From assembly GCF_033958435.1 (NCBI RefSeq), contig NC_134138.1:7638001-7702000 (forward strand): DNA of 64,000 nucleotides, in the 5' to 3' direction. Under the pieces are notes generated by a model. It searched no databases. It was not told the origin of the DNA and saw only the letters and a program-made list of their open reading frames with translations. Positions 16-62,989 of the stretch are shown one piece after another. The first letter of the stretch is position 1; every line of letters starts with the position of its first letter. A program made the translations under genes and the position numbers. Source of the stretch: Carettochelys insculpta (taxonomy: Eukaryota > Chordata > Testudines > Carettochelyidae).

Positions 16-330
16 TTGCCTCTCTTGATCCCCTGCTGGGGTGTGTGTGGCGGGGGGGAGGGGCTGGGCTCTCCCCTTTCCTCTGCGGCATGTGTATTTG
101 GCTGGGATCCCATTTCCCTGTGTATATGTGTATGTCTGGGCTCCCCCCCTCCCTCTGTGTGTGTGTGTGTGTGTGTAGGATCCTGCCTTCCCTCTCTGTG
201 TGTGTATGTATATGGGGCAGGGCTTCCCGCTTTCCTCTGGGGCATGTGCGGTTGGCTGGGCTCCCCCTTCCCTGTGTATATATGTGTATCTGGTCTCCCC
301 CCCTGTGCTGTCATGCGCACACATCTGCTT
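16..330. repeat. GT-rich minisatellite, two diverged units plus (TG)n
   Basis: A block of about 90 bp at 59-155 (GGGGCTGGGCT, TTTCCTCTGCGGCATGTG, TTGGCTGGG, CCCTGTGTATATGTGTATG) recurs at 213-302 with about 85 percent identity, a period near 154 bp. A pure TG run lies at about 155-177 between them. Short open frames here are low-complexity products of the repeat and not genes. Confidence 0.7.
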
Positions 331-3028: not shown

Positions 3029-3298
3029 TTAACTGGTACTTGAGTAACCAGCACACCCAAATAACCAGCATAACTCTCATGTTCTCTTCCTCCCTGGGGG
3101 CAGCTGCAAGGTACACTGTAAGAAGCTGGCAGCAATAACATCTCATTGGTTTAGTTGGAGGTCGCTCTCCGAGAGGGCATTTAGATGCTAACTGACAAAC
3201 CTCACATGTCTTGGCATCCTGTTCTGTGAAGAAACTACAAAGACGTGCTTAATCTAGCCCCATTAATCATGTGCTTAGCTAACAATTTAAATAGATTA
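3029..3298. other. Unassigned spacer
   Basis: No repeat or coding similarity recognised between the CR1 and the PLE tail. Confidence 0.4.
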
Positions 3299-3388
3299 AA
3301 CAAAACAGCAGAAATGTAGCACTTTAAAGACCAACAAAATGATTTATTTGGTGATGAGCTTTCATGGGACAGACCCACTTCTTCAGAC
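3299..3388 (-). mobile_element. Penelope-like element tail, type B, truncated
   Basis: Reverse copy of the type B PLE 3' tail: GTCTGAAGAAGTGGGTCTGT, CCCATGAAAGCTCATCACC and AGTCTTTAAAGTGCTAC can be followed on the minus strand. It stops exactly at GTCTGAAG (3381-3388), the 5' edge of the hammerhead-like core, a breakpoint shared with other copies here. The distal end (TAGACTAGCACGGCTT in full copies) is absent. Confidence 0.8.
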
Positions 3389-3835: not shown

Positions 3836-4147
3836 AAGAGTTTACTGTAAACAGTTTTAACAAGATGGAGGGGAAAATTGTCCTTGACCTCTGAGGATAG
3901 GACAAGTAGCAATGGGCTTAAACGGTGGCAAAGGAGGTTTAGGTTGGACATTAGAAAAACGGTGGTTGAGCACTGGACTAAATTGCCTAGGGAGGCTGTG
4001 GAATCTCCATCATCGGACATTTTTAAGGACAGGTTAGACAAACACCCATCAGGGATGCTCTAGATGGTGCTTGGTCCTGCCGTGAGTGCTGGGGGCTGGA
4101 CTAGATGTTCTCTTGAGGTCCCTTCCAGTCCCATGTTTCTATGATTG
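3836..4147 (+). mobile_element. CR1 LINE 3' fragment
   Basis: Carries the CR1 ORF2 end ([38 protein letters not shown]) and the 3' UTR (GGTGCTTGGTCCTGCC, GGTCCCTTCCAGTCCC, TTTCTATGATTG). Frame is broken and the piece is about 310 bp. Confidence 0.9.
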
Positions 4148-4848: not shown

Positions 4849-5042
4849 TTCTACAGACTTATTTTGAAAAATATCATCAATGCTGCTGCAGGAGAACCCT
4901 AAGTATCCCTTGGGAGGAGAAACACATGAACACTTGTGTCCTGGAAGAGTCCAACGTGACCAGCATTGAAGCCATTATCATTCACCAACAGCTTCGTTGG
5001 ATGGGTCACGTGGTTCGGATGTCTGAGCAGCGCCTCCCAAGG

Positions 5043-5166
5043 TCTGACAAAGTGGGTCTTTGCTCACAAAAGCTTATGCTCCAAAATATCTATTAGTCTA
5101 TAAGGTGCCACAGGACTTGTTGTTTTTCAAAATACAGGCTAACATGGCTACCTCTCTGATACTTGG
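5043..5166 (+). mobile_element. Penelope-like element tail, type A, inserted in LINE
   Basis: Type A PLE tail: TCTGACAAAGTGGGTCTTTG, CAAAAGCTTATGCTCC, TATTAGTCTATAAGGTGCC, ACATGGCTACCTCTCTGATA. It begins at TCTGA, the start of the hammerhead-like core, directly after the LINE codons for RLPR, and the LINE resumes after it. The same LINE/PLE junction occurs inverted at 9386/9387. No clear target duplication found. The ribozyme-like core is degraded here (CTGACAA, AAAA). Confidence 0.85.
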
Positions 5167-5527
5167 AAAACAGACTCTGCTTTGGGACAAGTTGGAGGAA
5201 GGACAGAGGAGCGTTGGGGATCAGTGGAAGAGATATAAGTGATATAAGGCTTGCTGAAGGCACACATGAAAAAGTACAGCATTGGTGTTGACGCTTAGGA
5301 GAGCTTTGCCCAGGACCTTCCCCGGTGGAGAGCAGGAATCCATGAGGAGTTGGTGCAATATGAGAGGTCCCACCTCAGCGCAGAAGAAGAGAGCTGGAGA
5401 AGGAGAAGACAGCAGAAAAAACTGCCCCGCTCCCCTCCAACAGCTGCCCGCACCTGTGCCTTCTGCGCTAAGACCTGAGGTTCCAGAATCGGGCTGGTCA
5501 GCCATCAGCAAACTCACAAATAGGAAG

Positions 5528-5713
5528 TATCAGAGAGGTAGCTGTGTTATTCTGCATCTTCGAGAACAGCAAGAAATCCTGTGGCACCTTATAGACTAAC
5601 AGGTGTTTTGGAGCATAAGCTTTCATGGGCAAAGACCCATTTCATGCATCTGATGAAGCAGGTCTTTGCCCACGAACGCTTATGCTCCAAACTATCTGTT
5701 AGTCTATAAGGTG
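5528..5713. mobile_element. Head-to-head Penelope-like dimer with 12-bp target duplication
   Basis: Left arm is a reverse type A tail (TATCAGAGAGGTAGC to GGCAAAGACCCATTT); right arm is a forward tail from ATGCATCTGATGAAG to GTCTATAAGGTG. Both arms point their 3' ends outward. The insert is flanked by a perfect 12-bp direct repeat ACAAATAGGAAG at 5516-5527 and 5714-5725, so the whole inverted structure entered in one event. The left arm starts inside the hammerhead-like core (TGAAATGGG) and the right arm is cut before GCCACAGG. The target is the LINE 3' end. Confidence 0.9.
5646..5685 (+). ncRNA. Hammerhead-ribozyme-like motif in PLE type A
   Basis: Stem I GCAT (5646-5649) can pair with ATGC (5682-5685). 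Core CTGATGA lies at 5650-5656, followed by an extra A, a stem II that pairs weakly here (GCAGG against CCCAC), then GAAC in place of GAAA. PLEs in other eukaryotes are known to carry hammerhead motifs. The changed GAAA and weak stem II suggest this copy is inactive. Confidence 0.5.
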
Positions 5714-5775
5714 ACAAATAGGAAGGGTGACAGAAAGACGGCTTACTCGTTATCGAGTGACCTCCAGGAGAGACT

Positions 5776-7766: not shown

Positions 7767-7872
7767 TTGCGGAGGGGCAGTCGTGTTAGTCTGTACCTTC
7801 ACAGAACAAAGCAAGCTGTCCAGTAGCACCTTAAAGACTGACAGCTGTTACTGGACGGCTTGCTTTGTTTTA
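7767..7872. mobile_element. Mini head-to-head Penelope-like piece
   Basis: Left arm: reverse tail with TCGTGTTAGTCTGTACC and AGTAGCACCTTAAAGACT. Right arm: TTACTGGACGGCTTGCTTTG, the complement of the CAAAGCAAGCTGTCCAGTA in the left arm. A very short inverted dimer of a third tail variant. A target duplication is not clear. Confidence 0.6.
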
Positions 7873-9110: not shown

Positions 9111-9298
9111 CAAAGGTTCTTGTCTGGCCATTGCTTGTGCCCCACCCAGTTATTGCCTCAGTCATTTCAAACCCTGTGTCCCATTGTTGCCCTGGCTGGG
9201 ATAATTAGCCATTCAAAAGCCCATGGGGATGAGTAGGTTGTGTGCAGGCTGAACAGAATTCAGTTTGCATTTTCTTTAGCATATCAATCTGCATTTTC
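9111..9298. other. Spacer, nothing recognised
   Basis: No repeat family identified apart from the 23-bp word shared with 8378-8400. Confidence 0.4.
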
Positions 9299-9816
9299 AA
9301 AAATAACAAGAAGTCCTGTGGCACCTTATAAACTAACAGGAATTTTGGAGCATAAGCTTTTGTGGGCAAAGACCCGCTTCGTCAGACTTTGGGAGGCGCT
9401 GATCAGACATCTGAACCATGTGACCCGTCCAACGAAGCTGTTGGTGAATGATAATGGCTTCAATGCTCATCATGTTGGACTCTTCTCCACATTAGCATCT
9501 GACAATGGGCCACATCCCCGCTGACTGAACTGACTTGTTTTCTCCTCTGTTGATGTTCACAACTCCACATTAACTGCCGATAATGGGCCACATCCACCCT
9601 GACTGAACAGATCTTGTCAGCTCTGGCCCTCTTCTTTACTGAGACCCCACCTCTTTAAATCCTCCTCTGAAACCCTGCCCCACTCATGCATCTGACGAAG
9701 CGGGTCTTTGCCCACAAAAGCTTATGCTCCAAAATATCTGTTCACCTGTAAGGTGCCACAGGACTTCTTGATGTTTTTGAAGATACAGACTAACTCGGCT
9801 CCCCCTCTGATACTTG
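9299..9816. mobile_element. Composite: reverse PLE tail + LINE fragment + forward PLE 3' end
   Basis: 9299-9386 is a reverse type A PLE tail. 9387-9487 is a reverse LINE fragment that on the minus strand encodes SIEAIIIHQQLRW and the RLPK block. 9488-9816 is a forward PLE 3' end (CTGACAATGGGCCACATCC, TGACTGAACAGATCTTGTCA, CATCTGACGAAGCGGGTC, CCCCCTCTGATACTTG). The LINE/PLE junction (CGCCTCCCAA then TCTGAC on the minus strand) is the same as at 5042/5043, and LINE plus tail match there at about 90 percent. The outer ends point outward as in the other head-to-head PLEs. No target duplication found. Confidence 0.85.
9688..9727 (+). ncRNA. Hammerhead-ribozyme-like motif, mutated
   Basis: GCAT (9688-9691), CTGACGA (9692-9698), stem II arms GCGGG and CCCAC, AAAA (9716-9719; the first G of GAAA is lost), AGCTT and ATGC (9724-9727). 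Fold preserved but the core G12 equivalent is mutated, so likely inactive. Confidence 0.45.
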
Positions 9817-13942: not shown

Positions 13943-14366
13943 GCGTCTCATATTTGGCACCTACCCTAAAGCTGAATTACTCCAAGTCACGAGGCACTCT
14001 GGGAACTCTTTGCCAGGGTCATCCCTGGGCTGTACTGGTAGGTGCCTCACATGCTCTTAGCTGCCATTAACCATGACAGTCTCACAGGTGTGGTGCATTC
14101 CCACGCAACATGCAACACCCGCACTGTACAGGGACCTTCCTCCTCTATCACTGCCTGGCAGGAGCTGGTTAACTGTGCGGAAGAGTGCGGCCTAGGAGTG
14201 TAGGCAGCTAGCAATGAAGACTCCTGCAACCAGCTGAAAGTATGGGGTGGGAGCCAGGGGGAACAGGGAACTATTTTGGTGGTACGTCAATGGGACTAGC
14301 AAACGCTGCAATAAGCCCAGTCTTGTAGGCCTAATACTGCTCCAGAAAATGTGCGAGTGATATTTC
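13943..14366. other. Spacer before the PLE insertion
   Basis: No feature recognised. Its last 10 bp (GTGATATTTC, 14357-14366) are the left target duplication of the PLE. Confidence 0.45.
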
Positions 14367-14417
14367 GAGAACAACAAGAAGTCCTGTGGCAACTGATAGA
14401 CTAACGGATATTTTGGA

Positions 14418-14457
14418 GCATGAGCTTTCGTGGGCAAAGACCTGCTTCATCAGATGC
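14418..14457 (-). ncRNA. Hammerhead-ribozyme-like motif (left arm)
   Basis: On the minus strand: stem I GCAT (14457-14454), CTGATGA (14453-14447), extra A, stem II arms GCAGG and CCCAC (two mismatches), GAAA, palindromic AGCT, C at the expected cleavage position, ATGC (14421-14418). Core nucleotides are intact but stem II is weakened. Confidence 0.5.
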
Positions 14458-14576: not shown

Positions 14577-14674
14577 TTTTTGAAATGTCTTTGTTTTAGG
14601 ACTGCTACTTTTAAATCTGGACACTCAATAACAGATTTAAAAGTAGCAGTCCTAAAACAAAGAAATTTCAAAAA
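14577..14674. repeat. 43-bp inverted repeat at PLE arm junction
   Basis: Arms 14577-14619 and 14632-14674 match at 42 of 43 positions around a 12-nt loop (GACACTCAATAA). Both arms are the same PLE ORF segment in opposite orientation; strong cruciform or hairpin potential. Confidence 0.9.
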
Positions 14675-14852
14675 TCAAATGGAGAGAGAAATCTCTGAGC
14701 TGCAATTTATTTTCAAAGTTGACTCCATCAACCAAGGATTAAACAGAGACTGGGAGTGGCTGGCCCCTTACAAAAGCAGCTTCGCTGCCCTAGGTGTTAA
14801 TATCTCCACATTGGACTCTGACAATGGGCTATTCCCCCCATGTCTGATCTGA
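14620..14852 (+). pseudogene. PLE ORF C-terminus
   Basis: The frame reads HSITDLKVAVLKQRNFKNQ, EREISELQFIFKVDSINQGL and NRDWEWLAPYKSSFAALG before a stop at 14852. It matches the segment after the GIY-YIG domain of the PLE frame at 33229. The GIY-YIG motif and all RT sequence are missing by 5' truncation. Its ATG start (14580) lies in the opposite arm and is an artefact of the inverted junction. Confidence 0.8.
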
Positions 14853-14973: not shown

Positions 14974-15014
14974 GCATCTGACGAAGTCGGTCTTTGCCCA
15001 TGAAAGCTTATCCT
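14974..15014 (+). ncRNA. Hammerhead-ribozyme-like motif (right arm)
   Basis: GCAT (14974-14977), CTGACGA (14978-14984), extra A, imperfect stem II (GTCGG against CCCAT), GAAA (15002-15005), AGCTT, then ATCC in place of ATGC, which weakens stem I. Confidence 0.45.
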
Positions 15015-15108
15015 CCAAAATATCTGTTAGTCTATGAGGTGCTACAGGACTTCTTGTTCTCGAAGATACAGATTAACATGGCTGCCTCTCTGATACTGGT
15101 GATATTTC

Positions 15109-17085: not shown

Positions 17086-17145
17086 AAATCAAAACAAAAA
17101 AGCAGTCAAGTAGCACTTGAAAGACTAACAAAATAATGTATTAGG

Positions 17146-17184
17146 CGATGAGCTTTCGTGGGACAGACCCGCTTCTTCAGACGC
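17146..17184 (-). ncRNA. Hammerhead-ribozyme-like motif, type B
   Basis: Minus strand: CTGAAGA, extra A, stem II GCGGG against CCCAC (one mismatch), GAAA, AGCT, C, ATCG. Stem I is weak because of the adjacent 14-bp duplication. Confidence 0.4.
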
Positions 17185-17341: not shown

Positions 17342-17720
17342 TTAAGCTAAGTATGCAAATGAGCCCCTATAGTGACCCAGAACATTCCCATCCTGGTTCA
17401 AACCACATGTTAATGTGTCGAATTTGAATATAAAAGAGAGTTCAGCAGCCTCTCTTTCAAGAGTGTTGTGAAAATTCCTCTTCACCAACACACAAACTCT
17501 TAAGTCATTAACAGAATGGCCCACTCCATTAAAATGCCGGCTAACACGTTGGTAGATCAGGAGTGTTTTTATGTCTGTTTTGTGCCCATTGACTCTGTCT
17601 GAGAGAGTTTGAAGTCTGTCCAATATACAAAGCATCTGGGCATTGTTGGCACATGATGGCACGTATGATGTTAATTGAGGAACATGAGACTGTGCCAGTG
17701 ATTCTGTGACTAACCTGGTT
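17342..17720 (-). pseudogene. PLE GIY-YIG endonuclease remnant and ORF end
   Basis: Minus-strand reading: ...IMCQQCPDALYIGQT (GIY-YIG motif, IYIG form), then a 1-nt frameshift, then LSDRVNGHKTDIKTLLIYQR, VSRHFNGVGHSVNDLRVCVL, REAAELSFIFKFDT and GLNQDGNVLGHYRGSFAYLA before a stop at 17342. In Penelope-like elements this endonuclease follows the RT and nicks the target. The only long open frame starts inside the domain; the frameshift and missing RT mark a dead copy. Confidence 0.85.
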
Positions 17721-17850
17721 AGGTCCAGTGATGGTATCTCCAGAATAGATATGTGGACAAACCTGGCAGCAGGCTTTGTTGCAAGGAAAAGTTCCAGGAC
17801 CGGTATTCCTGCGATATAGACTGTGGCTGTTGGTGGGAATCCTCGTAAGG

Positions 17851-18287
17851 TTGGGAGGTTGTCATCAATACCACCCCATCATTATTGCTGCTTCATTGGT
17901 AGTCTGCATGCATTAAGTTTGTTAGGGCTCTGCCCAGTTCCCAGTGGGCTGGCATCGGCATCCCAAAAACCACATCTCCCAGGCTGTCCTACCTTGCTTG
18001 GCCCTCCTCCCAGGTACTTCCAGACTCTGGCAGCTGACAGGCGCTGCATATGCAATACATGTGAAATGCATTGGTATTGCATGGGCCAAACAGGCTCTAT
18101 GCTATGTAGCCAATAGCCAGGGTTCCCACAGTGATTCTATGGCAGAAAAGGCTGTCCATTTGCAGAGCCATTGGCTTGGTACCCATCAGGAGTGTGACCC
18201 GAATAAAGGAAATATACTGGATGGGATTGGTGGGTGGCAGGTTGAAGACGGGAGTCCCGGAAAGCAACATGGTTTTGGCATTAGGAT
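17851..18287. other. Single-copy stretch, nothing recognised
   Basis: No repeat family or exon recognised; short frames overlap on both strands. Confidence 0.4.
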
Positions 18288-33228: not shown

Positions 33229-33678
33229 ACCAGCAACACCATCGCAGGACCTAACCAGGTCAGTCACACCATCACAGGTTCATTCAGCTGCACATCTACC
33301 AAAGCAATATATGCCATCATTTGCCAGCAGTGCCCCTCTGCTATATACATTGGACAGACTGGACAGTCCCTATGGAAAAGAATAAATGCACACAAGTCAG
33401 ATATCAAAAATGGCAATGTACAAAAGCCCATAGGAGAGCACTTCAATCTCCCAGGACACACAGTAACAGATTTAAAAGTAGCTATCCTACAGCAAAAAAA
33501 TTTTAAAACCAGACTCCAAAGAGAAACTGCTGGGCTGCATTTCATCTGCAAATTTGACACCCTCAGCTCAGGATTAAACAAAGACTGTGAACGGCTGGCT
33601 AAATACAAAAGCATTTTCTCCTCTCTTGGTGTTCACACCTCCAGATCAACTGCTGGTAGTAGGTCTCACCCTCCCTGA
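33229..33678 (+). CDS. PLE GIY-YIG endonuclease C-terminal reading frame
   Basis: A 149-codon stop-free frame, bounded by TAA at 33226-33228 and TGA at 33676-33678, with no in-frame Met near its start. It reads NQVSHTITGSFSCTSTKAIY, AIICQQCPSAIYIGQTG (the IY...YIG motif, CxxC pair just before), then LWKRINAHKSDI with the conserved Arg, GEHFNLPGHTVTDLKVAILQ, LHFICKFDTLSSGLNKDCER and LAKYKSIFSSLG. GIY-YIG endonucleases sit C-terminal to the RT in canonical PLEs. The frame is intact for the whole domain although the RT is gone, so this is a recent or lightly damaged copy. The antisense frame at 33264-33614 is a shadow. Confidence 0.85.
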   Translation, partial: TSNTIAGPNQVSHTITGSFSCTSTKAIYAIICQQCPSAIYIGQTGQSLWKRINAHKSDIKNGNVQKPIGEHFNLPGHTVTDLKVAILQQKNFKTRLQRETAGLHFICKFDTLSSGLNKDCERLAKYKSIFSSLGVHTSRSTAGSRSHPP

Positions 33679-33753: not shown

Positions 33754-33793
33754 GCATCTGATGAAGTGGGTCTTTGCCCACGACAGCCCATGC
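33754..33793 (+). ncRNA. Hammerhead-ribozyme-like motif, mutated
   Basis: GCAT (33754-33757), CTGATGA (33758-33764), extra A, stem II GTGGG/CCCAC, then GACA (33782-33785) in place of GAAA, and ATGC (33790-33793). The core A substitution should abolish activity. Confidence 0.5.
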
Positions 33794-33847
33794 TCATCCA
33801 TTTCTTTTAGTCTATAAGGTGCCACAGGACAGCTCGTTGCTTTTAGA

Positions 33848-54533: not shown

Positions 54534-54803
54534 TAGTAACAGAGAGGAAGCCGTGCTAGTCTATACACTAACAAAGCAAAAAGCAGCCAAGTAGCACTTT
54601 AAAGACTAGCCAAATGGTTTATTAGGTGAGCTTTCGTGGGACAGACCCACTTCTTCAGACTTCAAATATTCAAACACTTCTTCAAATATTGAGTCTGGTC
54701 TGGTCTGGCTATGGTCTGAAGAAGTGGGTCTGTCCCACGAAAGCTCACCTAATAAACCATTTGGCTAGTCTTTAAAGTGCTGCTTGACTGCTTTTTGTTT
54801 TGA
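54534..54803. mobile_element. Head-to-head Penelope-like dimer with 12-bp target duplication
   Basis: Left arm reverse type B tail from TAGTAACAGAGAGGAAGCCG to CCCACTTCTTCAGAC (ends at 54660). A 53-bp middle (54661-54713) includes GGTCTGGTCTGGC. Right arm forward tail from GTCTGAAGAAGTGGGTC to CTGCTTTTTGTTTTGA. Flanks CAATGGTCTGAA at 54522-54533 and 54804-54815, a perfect duplication of CR1 sequence. The left arm begins exactly at GTCTGAAG, the hammerhead core edge. Confidence 0.93.
54713..54749 (+). ncRNA. Hammerhead-ribozyme-like motif, type B, well preserved
   Basis: Stem I GGT (54713-54715) with ACC (54747-54749); CTGAAGA (54716-54722; position 7 may vary in the family); one extra A; stem II GTGGG/CCCAC perfect; GAAA (54739-54742); palindromic AGCT able to form stem III between two molecules; C54746 at the expected cleavage position. 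The extra A before stem II and the 3-bp stem I are departures from the consensus. Confidence 0.55.
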
Positions 54804-62344: not shown

Positions 62345-62525
62345 ATTAATATTGAGTTCTCTATACCTTAAATACTGAGTCTGTTCTGGTCTGGCTCTGG
62401 TCTGAAGAAGTGGGTCTGTCCCACGAAAGCTCATCACCTAATAAATTACTTTGTTAGTCTTTAAAGTGCTACTTTACTGCTTGTTTGTTTTGATAGTATA
62501 TAGACTAGCACGGCTTTCTCTCTGT
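62345..62525 (+). mobile_element. Penelope-like element tail, type B, complete
   Basis: TTAAATACTGAGTCTGTTCT, GGTCTGAAGAAGTGGGTCTG, TCCCACGAAAGCTCATCACC, GTTAGTCTTTAAAGTGCTAC, GTTTGTTTTGATAGTATATA and GACTAGCACGGCTTTCTCTC, TGTTGC. The most complete type B 3' end in the window and the reference for its terminus. Confidence 0.9.
62398..62436 (+). ncRNA. Hammerhead-ribozyme-like motif, type B, best preserved
   Basis: Stem I TGGT (62398-62401) with ATCA (62433-62436; one U-G pair); CTGAAGA (62402-62408); one extra A; stem II GTGGG/CCCAC perfect, with a TCTGT-type loop; GAAA (62425-62428); palindromic AGCT (62428-62431) as a minimal, possibly dimeric stem III; C62432 at the cleavage position. Departure: the extra A between core and stem II. 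Confidence 0.58.
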
Positions 62526-62989
62526 TGCTGATTATTATTGAGAACGATTCATTGTTCATTCAGTTAGAAGCCTATGGTTGGTCTGGATCAGGAGGAGTGA
62601 AGCTGAGTGAAATTTTTCAGACCCAACATTTTTTGGCAAAAAATGCCCGTTCTAGGGTACCGGAATTCTTTGCAAATTTGTGTTGCTTTCACTGAATTGT
62701 TTCAGTTAAGAAAAAAAAAAAAAAACATTCAAAAAATCACCAGGGGAAGTGTTTTGTTTCACCGTTTTCACACCAAACTGCTTCCATTTTTTCCAGTTTA
62801 AAATTTCCGGCAATAAAATTTTAAAAATCGTTTTAAGAGGTTTGAGATGTAAACCAGATTTTTGCTCAGCTTCAAACAATCCCCCCAACGCGCCAATCTT
62901 TCGGGATTGCTGTGATCCCAAAAGTGTGTTATTCACACTGCTCTGGGAGTGGGCTGAATCACGTATGAATACATACAGTCTGTTTGTAG
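62526..62989. other. AT-rich spacer with poly(A)
   Basis: A 16-nt A run lies at 62710-62725. TTTTTTGGCAAAAAATGCC and AAATTTCCGGCAATAAAATT are AT-rich without a recognised family. Confidence 0.4.

Follow-up and report, generated by a model that had tools for sequence, protein, structure and literature searches.

A complete hammerhead-like motif lies at 62398-62436 on the plus strand of the window (the whole stretch of DNA that was analysed, 64,000 nucleotides of the turtle Carettochelys insculpta). It reads TGGT-CTGAAGA-A-GTGGG-TCTGT-CCCAC-GAAA-GCT-C-ATCA, and every part of a minimal hammerhead is present: C3-A9, an extra A, stem II, G12-A13-A14-A15.1, AGCU, C17 and stem I. Stem II is a perfect 5 bp, and stem I has 4 bp including one G-U. 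The self-complementary AGCU stands where stem III would be.

Altogether, 12 such motifs were found in the 64-kb window on both strands (five of type B and seven of type A). Two of them are complete and the rest are decayed; the core is intact in seven. The features are listed in Table 1. With a permissive descriptor (CTGANGA, GAAA and GCT without mismatch; any letter but G at H17; at least three of five stem II pairs; 0-2 extra letters), eight matches were found in the window, seven of which had one extra letter, vs. one match in 200 dinucleotide shuffles.

Table 1. Coordinates of hammerhead-like motifs, tails and coding pieces of Penelope-like retrotransposons (PLEs) in the window
Feature	Position	Strand	Details
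Complete type B hammerhead-like motif	62398..62436	+	Stem I TGGT 62398-62401 / ATCA 62433-62436
Core of this motif	62402-62408	+	CTGAAGA; extra A 62409
Stem II of this motif	62410-62414 / 62420-62424	+	GTGGG / CCCAC
3' core of this motif	62425-62432	+	GAAA 62425-62428; AGCT 62428-62431; H17 = C 62432
Predicted cut of this motif	62432/62433	+	
Type B PLE tail with long 3' end	62402..62529	+	
TATA-like CTTAAATA	62367..62374	+	Begins 35 nt 5' of core
Second complete motif, B'	54713..54749	+	First core letter 54716; stem I GGT/ACC, stem II GTGGG/CCCAC
Type B tail, head-to-head with 54716	54535..54658	-	Intact core, stem I 2 bp
Type B tail	17088..17180	-	Intact core, GCGGG/CCCAC mismatch; motif start duplicated immediately upstream
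Type B tail	3298..3386	-	Homology starts at core; intact core
Type A tail	5044..5163	+	Core broken: G8 and G12 changed to A
Type A tails, head-to-head pair	5526..5716	.	5526-5645 minus, without first core letters; 5650-5716 plus, core broken (GAAC)
Type A tail	9288..9385	-	G12 lost (AAAA), GCGGG
Type A tail	9688..9814	+	First core letter 9692; G12 lost (AAAA), GCGGG, stem I GCAT/ATGC
Type A tail	14364..14457	-	First core letter 14453; intact core, GCAGG (stem II 3/5), stem I 4 bp
Type A tail	14974..15097	+	First core letter 14978; intact core, stem II 4/5, stem I down to 2 bp
Type A tail after 33229-33630 coding piece	33754..33844	+	First core letter 33758; perfect stems, broken core (GACA, GCCC)
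Tail piece lacking core	7772-7844	-	One of two tail pieces without core or without its first letters (other: 5526-5645)
PLE coding piece, GIY-YIG endonuclease	33229..33630	+	Pfam 25.0 bits, cut-off 22.6; before tail at 33754
PLE coding pieces before 17180 tail	17345..17861	-	Two protein matches; no Pfam match for 17595-17861
PLE coding piece before 14978 tail	14622..14795	+	40% identity over 58 residues

The first-pass annotation had named seven tails as carriers of the motif. All seven places do carry it, but an intact core together with both stems occurs only at 62398 and 54713. The copy named at 14418 is on the minus strand (14457-14418) and keeps its core with three of five stem II pairs; the one at 14974 also keeps its core, but has lost one stem II pair and half of stem I. 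At 5646, 9688 and 33754, the motif is recognizable but the core is broken. Five motifs (5044+, 9385-, 54658-, 17180- and 3386-) lie beyond those named. A separate dispersed repeat was seen at 3867-4146 and at about a dozen further places in the window, its copies being ~69-83% alike.

The Rfam hammerhead models, which had been proposed as a check, gave no match in the whole window at the gathering threshold and none in two stretches even at E 10. In monomer folding, only one of seven motifs exceeded its shuffles (33754, with 2 of 200 shuffles as good; for 62398 it was 57 of 200), and folding energy therefore offers no support. Two-strand folding favoured one long duplex and did not represent the dimer form. 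A pattern scan of viral contigs gave a single match, in apparent coding DNA of an unrelated contig, which was taken as chance, and no such motif was found in phage records.

The host element and its abundance

The repeats that carry the motifs are probably the 3' tails of PLEs of C. insculpta, mostly decayed, with a minimal type I hammerhead motif at the start of each tail; the first-pass annotation had also taken them for PLE tails. PLE-like coding pieces (RT and GIY-YIG) are located just upstream of several tails. The order of RT then GIY-YIG, adjoining the repeat, is that of EN-containing PLEs, with most single Pfam matches below curated cut-offs. Among seven proteins submitted to Pfam, one was above the cut-off (GIY-YIG, 33229-33630), three were below and three had no match. 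On DNA upstream of type B tails, RT and GIY-YIG were both below the curated cut-offs (E ~1e-3). Protein matches were found in the window and at 23 loci (the query's own locus counted), and 25 of 29 homologues bear turtle names.

Type B copies reach upstream by variable lengths, and three of 30 exceed 1.4 kb, which is near the limit of the fetched sequence. A type A tail at locus L038 is preceded by coding pieces that match the type B protein, at 69-86% for RT and at 34-76% for pieces of the endonuclease. Type A was assigned to a related PLE on account of this match. Two type A tails share the same 100-bp upstream piece, located at 4944-5044 (+) and 9385-9485 (-) and fused at the motif start. 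This piece reads as a non-LTR-like C-terminus (QLRWMGHVVRMSEQRLP); joined to the type A tail, it looks like one chimeric retroelement seen twice.

The tails end at two 3' points ~35 nt apart, near +96 and +128..136 in type B and near +83 and +122 in type A. Judged by eye, TGTTAGTCT...AGACTAACA (type B: AGACTAGC) could form a stem-loop at 62455-62520 and in other tails; it is perhaps a structure at which reverse transcription would start. Neighbouring tails mostly stand head-to-head: among the matches listed (three lists of 100), the minus-then-plus orientation applied to 23 of 24 neighbours within 1 kb and to 33 of 37 within 5 kb.

Exact-core patterns matched 17,335 times in the genome for type B, 7,055 times for A2 and 5,448 times for type A; the type B pattern also fixes flanking letters, and the type A pattern fixes G-C at 10.4-11.4. 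The reversed-pattern controls gave 0 matches genome-wide throughout, except for the pattern with G at the extra position (6 vs. 443). In 20 evenly spaced 10-kb stretches of one contig (C1), 22 tail pieces were found at E 1e-3 (16 A and 6 B). Extrapolated from these 20 stretches, the genome total would be ~240,000 tail pieces.

The extra A and the pairing of the stems

The letters of hammerhead catalysis are C3, G5, A6, G8, A9, G12, A13, A14, the A15.1-U16.1 palindrome and a non-G H17. We analysed 71 PLE-like copies comprising 44 distinct stem sets, after 47 further rows had been dropped as not PLE-like. The hammerhead core (CTGANGA, GAAA, GCT and non-G at 17) was intact in 46 of the 71. As 22 copies had been fetched by an exact 40-mer and are hence perfect by choice, the other 49 were also counted separately: 24 have an intact core, and nine of these also have all of stem II and 3 bp or more of stem I. 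The first-pass annotation had described a palindromic AGCT, of the kind that replaces stem III in dimeric PLE hammerheads; the complete copies have it. At the level of sequence, it is the A15.1-U16.1 palindrome that could pair between two copies.

In a type I hammerhead, stem II follows directly after A9. The turtle motifs depart from this by one letter, as had also been claimed. In a scan that presupposed a single extra position between A9 and stem II, the letter there was A in 70 of the 71 PLE-like copies; leaving aside those retrieved by the exact 40-mer, the figure was 48 of 49. Type B with the extra A deleted was found 12 times genome-wide vs. 17,335 times with it, and no type B lineage in which stem II follows the core at the usual distance was found in the genome. 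The pattern with G at the extra position, which allows a deletion or a change, matched 443 times. Among 12 of these matches with letters shown, 11 had A changed to G and not deleted, and one looks like chance. The extra A is fixed in these PLE lineages.

Stem I differs among lineages but remains paired. The claim that its two sides compensate between the tail types was borne out: in the 44 distinct stem sets, 81.8% of stem I was paired vs. 66.8% in shuffles, and 30 cells were doubly changed vs. 15.7 in shuffles. No shuffle of 500 reached either value. For stem II, no covariation beyond shuffles was found in the same sets (226 of 500 shuffles pair equally well). The covariation check, which had been proposed for both stems, supports the selected fold in stem I, whose signal comes mainly from the split between types A and B; in stem II, these sets show none. 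A further set of 25 copies was chosen by hand for variety among copies already retrieved. Here, 90.7% of cells were paired vs. 82.1% in shuffles, and 16 cells were changed on both sides vs. 6.0, each reached by 0 of 500 shuffles. Two of the five measures in this set were unremarkable, namely the count of double-change pairs (49 of 500 shuffles) and that of pair types (174 of 500).

Single pairs were tallied in lists of 100 matches. At pair 2.2-1.2 of type B, 98 of the 100 matches listed are paired (79 G-C, 13 G-T and 6 A-T, with 2 A-C; Fisher P 5e-4). Among copies viewed at full length, those with G-C also have a 3-nt deletion after the cut; the partner was therefore replaced and not point-changed. 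The second stem II pair of type A (10.2-11.2) is T-A in 49, C-A in 50 and A-A in 1 of 100 matches listed (hand tally). This share of C-A argues against strict pairing of stem II in one source lineage. Decay of a C-G pair at CpG was considered as the source of C-A, but type B, with a single occurrence of the C-G form, did not bear this out. In the A2 lineage (stem II GTGAG/CTCAC), 99 of 100 matches listed have A-T and one has A-C at 10.4-11.4, the position where type A has G-C; in RNA, A-T is A-U. Stem I is supported, mostly via few lineage splits (chiefly A vs. B). The support for stem II comes mainly from one compensated pair, the change from G-C to A-U in A2.

Ends of inserted copies and the role of the motif

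The 5' breakpoint, defined as the first position homologous to full copies, was located for 63 tail pieces, which came from the window, from the 20 spaced stretches and from 20 loci selected with a 31-mer lying downstream. In this set, L059/L060 and L070/L071 look like duplicates. Fifty breakpoints lie within 60 nt of the core, and 18 of them fall at -7..+3, vs. 4.6 expected if they were uniform (P 2e-7). There was no excess at the predicted cut: one of 50 at +29..+35 (2.9 expected) and five of 50 at +27..+37 (4.6 expected). By our reading of these data, 10 of the 18 pile-up pieces adjoin a head-to-head partner. The motif start of type A is palindromic (ATGCAT), and the joining of two cDNAs via a palindromic start could also place 5' ends there.

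Of 46 type B rows (22 of them retrieved by the exact motif and so with more upstream sequence), 26 have a TATA-like box at -35; of 25 type A rows, only 6 have one at -36..-39. The pile-up of 5' ends sits ~30 nt downstream of the box. With a TATA box at that distance, initiation by Pol II would be expected at about -7 to -4. Given the 5' ends at the motif start and the spacing of the box, the inserted DNA therefore appears to begin where the RNA begins. The breakpoints suggest that the hammerhead cut leaves no mark on insertions and is not what determines the termini of newly inserted copies.

Resemblance by chance, or conservation owing to coding, is highly improbable. The motif is short, the CTGATGA of type A includes an ATG, and excerpts of a study on an Anolis PLE place the beginning of its reading frame at stem II (PMC11167929); the eight window matches vs. 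one in 200 shuffles and the thousands of genome matches vs. reversed controls of 0 stand against it, as does the type B core CTGAAGA, which has no ATG. Still more remote is a C/D-box snoRNA-like element. Weak Rfam matches to C/D snoRNAs exist (best E 0.16), but all scores are far under the gathering cut-offs, and several matches, including the best, are on the opposite strand. A reading that predicts insertion 5' ends gathered at the predicted cut is unlikely. It would fit a motif close to the start of the repeat unit, and such a role is proposed for other ribozymes in the part of a 2020 review consulted (PMC7761336), but the single end at +29..+35 falls short of the 2.9 expected, and many copies continue upstream beyond the motif.

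A more serious competitor, which we nevertheless hold to be rather doubtful, is a fossil ribozyme that no longer cuts here and is retained in a different function, for instance as a hairpin that binds protein or as a template signal. The extra A within the core, the C-A mismatch in half of the type A matches listed and the lack of excess insertion ends at the cut would all agree with it, and in the Anolis PLE, mutation of the hammerhead leaves insertion normal, as stated in excerpts of that work (PMC11167929). The catalytic letters are, however, common to lineages in which stem I has changed.

The explanation that we consider probable is a weak PLE hammerhead, dependent on a dimer or on protein, which would sit at the 5' end of the RNA and be dispensable for making inserted copies. 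A known PLE hammerhead, slow alone, at the RNA 5' end would be the most economical reading. The TATA-like box would make the RNA begin at the 5' strand of stem I, and a start there would limit stem I to ~4 bp. Stem III would form only between two motifs, whether these belong to the 5' and 3' repeats of a single RNA or to separate RNAs; alternatively, the PLE protein may help to form it. The extra A may keep cleavage slow. Uncut RNA would be the template for new copies, and any cut would come later or be dispensable. Cutting and extension of both strands by the PLE protein, as in the Anolis PLE, would account for the head-to-head pairs. We put forward only tentatively that the hammerhead is throttled as a whole, with a promoter that limits stem I to ~4 bp, a fixed extra A that slows the core and a template that stays intact until two motifs, or a motif and the PLE protein, come together at a late stage of the cycle.

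Minimal dimeric hammerhead variants of PLEs were reportedly described by Cervera and De la Pena in 2014 and by Lunse, Weinberg and Breaker in 2017. The turtle motifs are like them in the type I order, the tiny palindromic stem III and the absence of long loop contacts, and also in their place within PLE terminal repeats, their thousands of copies and the dimers. They are unlike them in the extra A after A9, present in every lineage sampled here, although the published sets may include it. In the titles and abstract openings searched, there was no mention of turtle PLE hammerheads or of an extra core A in PLE hammerheads; the two primary reports of PLE hammerheads were outside that search. PLE hammerheads are already published; the present analysis adds the breakpoint test and the finding that the extra A is fixed. 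The latter may turn out to be a variant described before.

According to excerpts of the Anolis study, the PLE PAc has two RT start sites, which match two 3' end points; its hammerhead cleaves only with protein, with no reads at the cut site, and its protein cuts and extends both strands (PMC11167929). PAc and the turtle elements are alike, as far as these excerpts go, in element class, the two 3' end points and stems I and II. Cleavage of PAc depends on protein (PMC11167929), and we propose that the same may hold for its turtle counterpart. The PAc frame starts at stem II, whereas the type A frame from the core ATG soon hits a stop (by eye). In the excerpts, PAc is cut 26 nt past its start codon; judged by this distance, PAc may also have an extra A.

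The excerpted text on a viroid hammerhead with an extra core nucleotide describes weak cleavage that became faster once the nucleotide was removed (PMC11014351). The turtle motif likewise has one extra core nucleotide; the viroid case differs in that it concerns viroid RNA and not a retroelement. The viroid is presumably chrysanthemum chlorotic mottle viroid, with its extra nucleotide following A9. The hammerhead of that viroid is not known to have a dimeric stem III. The rotifer Penelope pLTRs, in the portion of the report consulted, form head-to-head inverted repeats with palindromic junctions, have an optional 31-bp tail and contain a TATA box in the repeat (PMC3846280). Inverted pairs, an optional tail and a TATA box are thus shared with the turtle PLEs; the word 'hammerhead' does not occur in the text (PMC3846280).

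The role of PLE hammerheads was called unknown in the excerpted part of the 2020 review (PMC7761336). The tens of thousands of exact-core matches, the fixed insertion and the readable ends make the extra A directly testable as an attenuator. The same turtle copies make it testable whether cleavage ever shapes inserted DNA.
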